Below are positions 34,996-37,784 of a stretch of DNA of 56,806 bases, one piece after another. Below the pieces are notes generated by a model. That model saw only the letters and a program-made list of their open reading frames with translations. It made no database searches and was not told the origin of the DNA. The DNA comes from Humidesulfovibrio sp. GTDB lineage: Bacteria; Desulfobacterota; Desulfovibrionia; Desulfovibrionales; Desulfovibrionaceae. The stretch is taken from assembly GCF_030689645.1 (NCBI RefSeq), contig NZ_JAUYFU010000024.1:1-56806 (forward strand), read 5' to 3'. The first letter of the stretch is position 1; each line of letters starts with the position of its first letter. The translations under genes were made by a program, and so were the position numbers.

Positions 34996-35035
34996 TGCGC
35001 CGCCGCGCCGTGACTGGTTGTCTTGACCAGTCCTG

Positions 35036-35090
35036 AAGCCCGGCGGCATTAAGGCCACCGGAGTCCGTGCCATTGCGGGCTGCCGGGCTT
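35036..35090 (+). terminator. long-loop hairpin after tatA
   Basis: AAGCCCGGC (35036-35044) pairs with GCCGGGCTT (35082-35090), and TCGTGTTTTG follows. The 37-base loop holds a further GGC/GCC pairing. A smaller hairpin, ACTGGT/ACCAGT, lies at 35013-35031. Probable terminator of tatA. Confidence 0.6.
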
Positions 35091-35138
35091 TCGTGTTTTG
35101 TTATCCGAAGGAGCGCCGAAGCGCCCGGGGAGGCTGCC

Positions 35139-36419
35139 ATGTCCCAGCACGCCAAAGATTTATTTTTAAGCGCGGTTCTGGACCGTAGCGTCATCAGCCG
35201 TTCCGGCCGCGAGGTTGGGCGGCTTTTTGATGTAGCCATGAGCCCTGGCGATCCCCTGCCCGTGGTCCACCATATATTGGTTAAGGCCAACGGCGAAACG
35301 CGCCGCGTGGCTTTCAGCGATTTGGCAATGTTCAACGACGTTGTCGTGTCGCTGAAAGGCGAACCCGAGACCCTGCCCAATCTGCCGGAGTCCGAGAACG
35401 AGGTGCTCATGCGCCGCGACATTCTCGATAAGCAGATTGTTGATGTGGACGGGGCACGCGTTGTTCGCGTCAACGATCTGAAGCTGGCCCTTTCCCCAGA
35501 CGGAGGCCTGTGCCTCTCCGCCGTCGACATCGGCTTCCGGGGCATCCTGCGGCGTTTAGGCTATCTCAGGGCCTGGGATTTCCTGGGCGGGGCGATGAAG
35601 CGTCAGCTCGCCTCCAAGGAGATCGACTGGCTGCTGGTTCAGCCCCTCGACGCCAATCTCACCAATCTCACCCTCACCGTCACCCGCGACAAACTCTCCG
35701 ACATGCACCCGGCCGATCTGGCCAACATTCTTGCTCAATTGCCTCATGGCAACGTCTCCGCAGTGCTTAACTCCATCGATGTGGAGGCTGCGGGCGAGGC
35801 CATGGGCGAGATGGAGCCCGAGGATTCCAGCCGGCTGCTTTCCCAGATGGAGAGTTCGCACGCCGCCGATGTTCTGGAAGAAATGCCGCCCGACGAAGCC
35901 GCCGACGTTCTGGCCGAACTGCCCGACGAGAAGGCCCAGGAACTGCTGGCCCAAATGGACCCCGAGGACGCGGAAAAGGTTCAGGAACTGCTGGAGCACG
36001 AGGATGACTCGGCTGGTGGCCTGATGAACAACGAGTTCCTCTTCGTTCCCCCGGCTGCCACGGCAGATGACGCTTTGGCCCAGGTGCGCCTGCTCGGAGC
36101 GGAGATGGACTCCATCTATTATATCTATGTGTTAGATCCGGACGAGCAGCTTCTGGGCGTGGCGAGCCTCAAACGCCTGCTTCTTGCGCGCGGATCAGAC
36201 CCCATTTCCGGCATCATGAGCCGCAACCCCAAGAGCGTGCAGGTCGACTCATCCCTTGAGGACGTGCTGGAGCTGGTGGTGCAGTACAAGCTGGCCTCCG
36301 TCCCAGTGCTTGAGGAAGACGGCAAGATGGCCGGCATCGTCACCTCGGACGACATCATCGAGCACTTTCTGCCTTTTGCCCTGCGCTGGAAACAGTACAA
36401 GGCCATGCGCAACTTCTAG
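35139..36419 (+). CDS. soluble PRC-barrel / MgtE N-domain / CBS regulatory protein
   Basis: A 426-residue cytoplasmic protein. Residues about 5 to 140 hold two PRC-barrel-like segments (LDRSVISRSGREVGRLFDV and ILDKQIVDVDGARVVRVND). Residues about 180 to 285 are the superhelical MgtE N-domain (HPADLANILAQLP, HAADVLEEMPPDEAADVLAELP and so on). Two CBS domains follow from about 300 (GGLMNNEFLFVPP, SVPVLEEDGKMAGIVTSDD). In MgtE these domains sense Mg2+ and gate the channel, but the MgtE membrane domain is absent here. The next gene, 18 bases downstream, is an NRAMP-family transporter, so regulation in trans is likely. GGGGAGG precedes the ATG at 35139. Confidence 0.88.
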   Translation: MSQHAKDLFLSAVLDRSVISRSGREVGRLFDVAMSPGDPLPVVHHILVKANGETRRVAFSDLAMFNDVVVSLKGEPETLPNLPESENEVLMRRDILDKQIVDVDGARVVRVNDLKLALSPDGGLCLSAVDIGFRGILRRLGYLRAWDFLGGAMKRQLASKEIDWLLVQPLDANLTNLTLTVTRDKLSDMHPADLANILAQLPHGNVSAVLNSIDVEAAGEAMGEMEPEDSSRLLSQMESSHAADVLEEMPPDEAADVLAELPDEKAQELLAQMDPEDAEKVQELLEHEDDSAGGLMNNEFLFVPPAATADDALAQVRLLGAEMDSIYYIYVLDPDEQLLGVASLKRLLLARGSDPISGIMSRNPKSVQVDSSLEDVLELVVQYKLASVPVLEEDGKMAGIVTSDDIIEHFLPFALRWKQYKAMRNF

Positions 36420-36437
36420 CTTCCTGGCGGCACCCCC

Positions 36438-37784
36438 ATGAGCCTTACTTCCATTTTTCCGTCACTGGGCAAGCTGAACCGCAGGAACATCGTCATGTTT
36501 CTTGCTCTTCTCGGTCCGGGCATCATCACCGCCAACGTCGACAACGATGCGGGCGGCATTACGACCTATTCTCTTGCCGGCGCGCAGTTCGGCATGTCTC
36601 TTCTTTGGATGATGCTGCCCACAACCGTGGCGCTCGTCGTTATTCAAGAGATGTGCGCGCGCATGGGCGCGGTGACTGGCAAGGGGCTGGCCGACCTTAT
36701 TCGCGAAAGTTTTGGCGTCAAAATAACTTTTTACGTCATGATCGCCCTATTGTTGACTAACCTTGGCAACACAGTGAGCGAGTTTGCCGGCATCGCCGCC
36801 AGCATGGAGCTTTTCGGCGTCAGCAAATACATTTCCGTTCCCTTGGGCGCGATCGCCGTGTGGCTGCTCATCGTTAAGGGCTCGTATCGCATCGTGGAGA
36901 AGGTTTTTCTCGTGGCCTGCGTTGTCTATGTGGCCTATCCCGTGGCGGCCTTCATGTCCGGGCCGGACTGGGGCGAGGTGCTTCGCGCCTCCGCCGTGCC
37001 CGACATGCACGTGACGCCCAGCTCCGTCACCATGATGATCGGCGTCATCGGCACCACCATCGCTCCGTGGATGCAGTTCTACCAGCAGGCAAGCGTGGTG
37101 GAGAAGGGCATCACCAAGGAAAATTACAATTTCTCTCGACTGGATGTCATCGTTGGCTGCGTCATGGCCATTGTCGTGGCCTTCTTCATCGTGGTGGCCT
37201 GCGCCGCCACCATCTTCAAGGCCGGCATCAAAATCGAGACCGCTGCGGATGCCGCCATGGCGTTGACGCCGCTGGTGGGCGAGTACGCCACCGGACTCTT
37301 CGCCGTGGGCCTGTTCAACGCCTCGCTCTTCGCCGCCTGCGTGCTGCCCCTGTCCACCTCGTATTACATCTGCGAGGGCATGGGCTGGGAGCTTGGCGTG
37401 GACAAGGACTTCAGCGAGGCCCCGCAGTTCTTCTGGCTGTTCACCCTCATCATCGGCATCTCCGCAGGCATCATTCTCTGGCCCGAGGCGCCGCTCATCG
37501 CCATCATGTACCTTTCCCAGGTTGTGAACGGTGCGGTGCTGCCCTTTGTGCTGATATTCATGCTGCGGCTCATCAACGACAAGCGCCTCATGGGCGACTA
37601 CGTCAACGGCCCGGTGTTCAACGTCATCGCCTGGGGCACGGTGGTCATCGTCATGGGCCTTACTTTGATTATGACCCGATCTCATCCACCCGGGCTTCAT
37701 CGCCCTGCTCATGGGCAGGTGAGCCGCACACCGGCGCTGGCCTGCTGTGCTGGCCAAAAGAAACCGCCCGGCCCCTCGTTGTGA
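36438..37784 (+). CDS. NRAMP-family divalent cation transporter with altered metal site, probable frameshift at the 3' end
   Basis: An 11-helix transporter, 448 residues as read. In helix 1 the canonical DPGN is replaced by D35-N-D-A-G-G, and in helix 6 the canonical MPH is replaced by A209-P-W. The Met that favours transition metals is therefore missing, as in NRAMP-related Mg2+ transporters. The neighbouring MgtE-type regulator supports Mg2+ or another hard cation. After residue 413 the reading frame becomes Pro/Arg/Cys-rich and runs into the terminator hairpin. Removing one C of the run at 37675-37677 would instead give the tail DLIHPGFIALLMGR with a stop at 37720-37722, about 427 residues. 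The shift is either real or a sequencing error. Confidence 0.85.
   Translation: MSLTSIFPSLGKLNRRNIVMFLALLGPGIITANVDNDAGGITTYSLAGAQFGMSLLWMMLPTTVALVVIQEMCARMGAVTGKGLADLIRESFGVKITFYVMIALLLTNLGNTVSEFAGIAASMELFGVSKYISVPLGAIAVWLLIVKGSYRIVEKVFLVACVVYVAYPVAAFMSGPDWGEVLRASAVPDMHVTPSSVTMMIGVIGTTIAPWMQFYQQASVVEKGITKENYNFSRLDVIVGCVMAIVVAFFIVVACAATIFKAGIKIETAADAAMALTPLVGEYATGLFAVGLFNASLFAACVLPLSTSYYICEGMGWELGVDKDFSEAPQFFWLFTLIIGISAGIILWPEAPLIAIMYLSQVVNGAVLPFVLIFMLRLINDKRLMGDYVNGPVFNVIAWGTVVIVMGLTLIMTRSHPPGLHRPAHGQVSRTPALACCAGQKKPPGPSL

Follow-up and report, generated by a model that had tools for sequence, protein, structure and literature searches.

A detached MgtE-like Mg2+ sensor encoded beside an NRMT-type transporter in Humidesulfovibrio: a candidate two-protein system for controlled Mg2+ uptake

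Why should the cytosolic, regulatory part of a Mg2+ channel be encoded without the channel and next to a transporter of a different family? The question is raised by two adjacent plus-strand genes in a 56,806-nucleotide stretch of a Humidesulfovibrio genome (contig NZ_JAUYFU010000024.1; hereafter, the window). The first gene (35139–36419; ATG at 35139, stop at 36419, with an in-frame GTG at 35067 as the mechanical start of the open reading frame) encodes a soluble protein of 426 aa, here denoted the sensor, and the second, separated from it by 18 bases (36438–37784), encodes an NRAMP-family transporter in an open reading frame of 448 aa. The pair is preceded by a TatA/B-family gene and followed, on the opposite strand, by a CheW and receiver-domain gene. 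The original prediction of a detached protein with MgtE N and CBS domains, followed by an NRAMP-family gene, was confirmed by Pfam matches far beyond chance (MgtE_N, residues 189–290, E 5e-27; CBS, E 4e-19; PF01566 in the transporter, E 3e-104), and the arrangement of the pair is conserved. The highest Kyte-Doolittle 19-residue mean in the sensor is 1.06, i.e., the protein has no hydrophobic stretch and therefore no membrane part. The transporter frame is longer than those of its congeneric orthologs (448 vs. 428–432 aa), and its end is frame-shifted relative to three aligned orthologs that have two more bases near position 37675, a deficit that may be either a sequencing error or a real change.

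Gene pairs of this kind were first described in 2014, when Nramp-related genes located behind M-boxes (Mg2+ riboswitches), mostly in Clostridia and Deltaproteobacteria, were named NrmT and most of them were found to adjoin a gene homologous to the cytoplasmic domain of MgtE, for which a role in feedback regulation or as a chaperone was speculated (Shin et al., 2014; PMC4072509). The role of the MgtE-like gene was left open there, and within the literature covered, only Shin et al. (2014) was found to treat this gene. The window pair shares with the NrmT/NRMT systems that include an MgtE-like gene (Shin et al., 2014; EleNRMT, 7qia) the transporter clade, the site signature and the kind of adjoining partner gene. 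Unlike the M-box-led NrmT loci, it has no M-box, and its genome carries a second, divergent pair on another contig (C51). The split pairs, the replacement of MgtE and the conservation of Mg2+-site residues described below go beyond the cited sections of Shin et al. (2014) and Ramanadane et al. (2022).

The window transporter very probably carries Mg2+. Its best PDB match is EleNRMT (7qia; E 1e-123, 416 bits), whereas the next one, a canonical Nramp, scores 108 bits; the closest named match, from a Humidesulfovibrio MAG (L038), is 88% identical. The identity to the canonical MntH encoded in the same genome (contig C27), which, unlike the window transporter, has no sensor beside it, is 23%, so that the window protein is closer to NRMT than to canonical Nramp. 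The site residues lie in D37-A-G-G40 of helix 1 and T206-T-I-A209-P-W211 of helix 6, with the Trp following the site, and conform to the DxxG and TxxA/T signature of NRMTs (Ramanadane et al., 2022; PMC8806188). The family is shared with canonical Nramps such as the MntH of this genome and DraNramp, but their DPGN and MPH motifs are replaced. The motifs originally predicted to stand in for them, DNDAGG and APW, are indeed present, although the register had to be shifted: DPGN aligns to D37-A-G-G40, which begins at the second D of DNDAGG. The accompanying argument, which ties Mg2+ acceptance to the missing Met of helix 6, fares less well. In EcoDMT, replacement of this Met by Ala opened the transporter to Ca2+, and Mg2+ was not transported even when three changes were combined to recreate the NRMT site (Ramanadane et al., 2022; PMC8806188). 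Since a canonical Nramp does not gain Mg2+ transport when only its Met is removed, reasoning from this one residue oversimplifies; the assignment to the NRMT clade nevertheless stands.

EleNRMT carries Mg2+ and Mn2+, with no strong evidence for Ca2+ and no H+ transport (PMC8806188). By analogy with this protein and with the M-box-controlled orthologs, the window transporter would mediate the entry of Mg2+ (and Mn2+) without proton coupling. The same analogy leaves room for a different assignment, namely that the pair serves the uptake of Mn2+, or of divalent ions in general, and that the sensor responds to Mn2+. The Kd of EleNRMT is lower for Mn2+ (near 100 uM) than for Mg2+ (near 400 uM; PMC8806188), and the NrmT of A. 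capsulatum fully rescued a Mn2+ uptake defect and is likely to be a Mn2+ transporter (PMC4072509). Furthermore, two acidobacterial loci (L114 and L117) have the site motifs of the window protein, and therefore the motif alone might not separate the Mg2+ type from the Mn2+ type. The evidence that bears on this assignment from the other side comes from the sensor, the riboswitches and the distribution of MgtE.

The sensor consists, in a predicted structure (alignment of 64 sequences; mean pLDDT 85.6, pTM 0.50), of two small beta domains, a helical MgtE N domain (residues 183–285), a CBS pair (about 289–410) and a C-terminal helix (403–424) with low confidence at its end. Its second half is matched by MgtE structures in a Foldseek search (best E 3e-21, 31% identity), and eight MgtE chains align with VIA Z scores from 22.4 to 20.5 (rmsd 2.4–3.3 A over 228–247 residues), at 24–31% identity across the MgtE structures. 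The sensor shares with the MgtE of T. thermophilus the N domain, the CBS pair, the Mg2+ residues between them and about 30% identity, but lacks the channel domain and the acidic plug helix, has an ATP pocket that is largely not conserved, and carries two PRC-barrel-like domains added in front (about residues 8–72 and 89–179, read off the model). As to the PRC barrels of the original prediction, the model contains the two beta domains, and 60 of the 64 aligned sensors match PF05239 (in two stretches in one of the four relatives inspected, L066); the window protein itself has no Pfam match to this domain at E 0.01. A structure search with the model listed no PRC-barrel chains, an absence that carries no weight either way. 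PRC barrels are general binding modules.

In MgtE, Mg2+ is bound between the N domain, the CBS domain and the plug helix, and closure is blocked by mutating any of the sites Mg2–Mg7 (PMC5882242). When the residues of these sites, taken from the same paper, were surveyed in 65 sensors (63 relatives, the window protein and its paralog from the same genome), D95 (Mg6) was found to be kept in all 65, an acid at the position of E59 (Mg7) in 54, and Asp at the Mg4 positions D91 and D247 in 48 and 49, respectively. In contrast, Asp at D226 (Mg5) occurs in only 9 of the 65, the window protein having Lys there, and the sensors have no acidic plug helix (Mg2, Mg3) but end in a short tail that is often basic in the sequences displayed. 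E220, D252, D256, D405, E408 and K384 of the window protein align with E59, D91, D95, D247, D250 and D226 of MgtE, i.e., the protein has the N domain, the CBS pair and the acids at their interface that are characteristic of the cytosolic Mg2+ sensor of MgtE. This residue pattern fits a sensor that may still close upon Mg2+ at the N-CBS interface, without the pull on a covalently joined channel; the loss of the Mg5 residue and of the plug helix counts against this reading, as MgtE needs all of its sites in order to close.

The contacts of MgtE with ATP include Tyr170, Arg187, Asn203 and Phe227 (PMC5529423). Among the 65 sensors, Tyr170 is kept in 48 and Arg187 as Arg or Lys in 56, whereas Asn203 and Phe227 are mostly replaced; with the pocket residues largely not conserved, an MgtE-like ATP pocket was dropped from the mechanism.

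Linkage of the two genes across genomes, which had been put forward as a check on the original prediction, was found in both samples analyzed. Among the best 80 NRMT loci of other genomes (one genome per species; the closest loci rather than a random sample), the sensor adjoins the NRMT in 69, being located upstream on the same strand in 64, downstream in one and convergent in four (L090 was read by hand as upstream, the automated count of 63/2/4 having been misled by a long open frame that hid the order). In seven of the 11 remaining genomes, a sensor, complete or partial, is encoded elsewhere, and in G462 it lies beside another NRMT; the other four have CBS-level matches only, and in all four the NRMT lies at a contig end. 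In a sample of 297 genomes from the phylum of the window, which are not phylogenetically independent, 66 long sensor matches were detected, spread over 65 genomes, each of which also has an NRMT (in G391, it was counted from two short NRMT pieces beside the sensor). Of the other genomes, one contains a 79-residue NRMT-like piece without a sensor and 231 contain neither gene. Fifty-seven of the 66 sensors are within 1.5 kb of the NRMT (42 upstream, 6 downstream and 9 convergent), and nine are unlinked, two of these at contig ends. As a control, we examined 42 loci that encode other NRAMP proteins (38 of them distinct), together with as much as 1.5 kb on either side, or less where a contig end intervened: in none of the 41 loci (37 distinct) without NRMT motifs does a sensor accompany the NRAMP, whereas the sole NRMT in this set does have a sensor in its flank. 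No fusion was found, in that no stop-to-stop frame of at least 250 aa in 220 loci matches both profiles.

Neither a Mg2+ transporter nor any other transporter common to the unlinked sensors was present among the neighbors scanned, so the latter possibility was ruled out on these neighbors. They give matches to DctM, an M48 peptidase, an aminotransferase, a glycosyltransferase, a U32 peptidase, a phosphoribosyltransferase, PFK, PGI, an IF-2B-like protein, a polyprenyl synthase, an acetyltransferase, a mutase and a DnaA-like protein; DctM recurs in three genomes of one family. In three NRMTs whose genomes have the sensor unlinked, DNDAGG is kept but helix 6 reads TxxT.

The genome evidence suggests that the transporter and the sensor work together. 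The adjacency of most pairs makes joint inheritance cheap, and hence the two genes could in principle be neighbors by descent only, as members of an old cluster without a functional link. Such an explanation is very improbable, given that genomes in which the two genes lie at a distance have retained both, two of them with an M-box for each gene, that the pairs come in three arrangements (upstream, downstream and convergent), and that no sensor genome without an NRMT occurs among the 297.

The riboswitches of the relatives connect both genes to Mg2+. For the window pair itself, no M-box (RF00380) was detected, either at the gathering threshold or at a relaxed threshold around the genes, nor was there one elsewhere in the genome; other Rfam families produced only weak matches around the pair, at the gene end. 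M-boxes are present in seven of 34 genomes, taken from the best 80, that were searched genome-wide, and in nine of 12 loci scanned (seven of the 12 having been chosen for an M-box already found in their genomes), each directly before a sensor-NRMT pair or an NRMT alone; the three loci without one are L039, L050 and L109. In four loci (L040, L041, L044 and L052) with NRMTs 71–75% identical to that of the window, the M-box directly precedes the pair. Two Firmicutes, Acididesulfobacillus acetoxydans (G446) and Peptococcaceae bacterium CEB3 (G445), encode an NRMT without a sensor behind an M-box, and their stand-alone sensor genes (L216, 2079–3700, and L217, 2413–4039, respectively), with no NRMT within the 7.5 kb read, have an M-box of their own about 240 bases upstream, so that a Mg2+ riboswitch precedes each gene separately. 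In both genomes, genes for phosphofructokinase and phosphoglucose isomerase follow the lone sensor. Taken with the EleNRMT match and the co-occurrence, the M-boxes uphold the predicted pairing of an MgtE-like sensor, detached from its channel, with a transporter of the Mg2+ type.

Across genomes, the pair and the MgtE channel are largely mutually exclusive. In the phylum sample, PF01769, the channel domain of MgtE, is found in five of 65 sensor genomes vs. 167 of the 232 others when the weak matches of G142 and G246 are disregarded (Fisher p 1e-21, without correction for kinship). In the eight families that include both kinds of genomes, none of the 18 sensor genomes has this domain, the weak match of G246, one of these genomes, aside; the five sensor genomes that do have it fall in three other families. 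The window genome has no match to PF01769, one CorA and the single canonical, DPGN-type MntH mentioned above. Its second NRMT-sensor pair (C51:2354–5125; L003, L005 and L148), in which the sensor is downstream, has a transporter 33–36% identical to that of the window and a sensor in which D91, an Mg4 position, is replaced by Ala and D250 by Lys. Thus, a primary role in Mn2+ uptake appears distinctly unlikely, considering this replacement pattern, the M-boxes before orthologs up to 75% identical, the Mg2+-site residues kept in the sensors and the canonical MntH that the genome already has.

We therefore propose, with somewhat better than even confidence, that the window genes constitute an uptake pair for Mg2+, perhaps also for Mn2+, in which the sensor brakes the transporter in trans; feedback control of the transporter by the sensor, as such, is likely. 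The NRMT would admit hydrated Mg2+ (probably also Mn2+), driven by the ion's own gradient and without proton coupling, and its soluble neighbor would correspond to the part of MgtE that senses cytosolic Mg2+, freed from the channel. At high cytosolic Mg2+, the ion would be bound between the N and CBS domains and bring the sensor into a compact, closed form which, docked perhaps through the PRC barrels, would keep the transporter closed, so that what MgtE does within one protein would be divided between two. Computed here were the homology and the signature, the joint occurrence of both genes, the retention of Mg2+-site residues and, in relatives, the association with riboswitches, whereas the binding of the sensor to the transporter and the brake are what we infer. 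Counting against the proposal are the missing M-box of the window pair, the poorly conserved ATP pocket, the four genomes with CBS-level matches only and the lack of a sensor-NRMT fusion in the 220 loci.

The sensor could instead act as a metal chaperone, help in assembly or regulate some other process, with a need for it arising only in cells that use NRMT. With the plug helix missing, some of the pairs unlinked and the PRC barrels being suited to binding in general, this is conceivable, and we consider it unlikely rather than negligible, because the sensor has the fold of the gating part of MgtE with the N-CBS Mg2+ residues mostly kept and is accompanied by an NRMT in 65 of 65 genomes. The published complementation experiments also bear on the choice. 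The C. acetobutylicum NrmTs (Ca_c0685 and Ca_c3329) functioned without a sensor in B. subtilis, and co-expression of both A. capsulatum genes brought no further gain in Mg2+ rescue over the transporter (PMC4072509). The latter result stands against gating in its simple reading, although better rescue is not what a brake should produce and such a test would not reveal one.

Should the sensor indeed gate the NRMT, one ion-sensing module would control two unrelated membrane folds, and the gating would account for how Mg2+ overload is avoided despite an uncoupled transporter. The chances appear about even that the regulatory half of MgtE is an exchangeable soluble part that, equipped with PRC barrels, brakes an uncoupled LeuT-fold transporter in trans, and that NRMT and sensor replace MgtE in many phyla as a two-protein, feedback-controlled route of Mg2+ entry. 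Direct and simple tests are made possible by the conserved residues D256, D252 and D405 and by those split pairs in which each gene has its own M-box.

On the plus strand, a leader (34996–35138) separates the sensor gene from the tatA-like gene. It has no M-box in Rfam but contains inverted repeats, among them a conserved GC-rich hairpin with T-rich sequence behind it; a consensus terminator scan did not list this hairpin. Possibly, the hairpin marks the end of the tatA transcript or is an attenuator in place of an M-box. The structured leader is common to the window and five relatives (L009, L011, L012, L014 and L038), with compensatory change in two of 35 predicted pairs. A different leader lies upstream of the sensor in other congeners (L039, 3441–3706; L109, 3416–3681; L015, L016 and L018), without an Rfam match in L039. 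In these five loci, it carries a ribosome-site-like AGGAGG and an ATG that opens a small frame, which appears, by eye, to end at the ATGA of the sensor gene.
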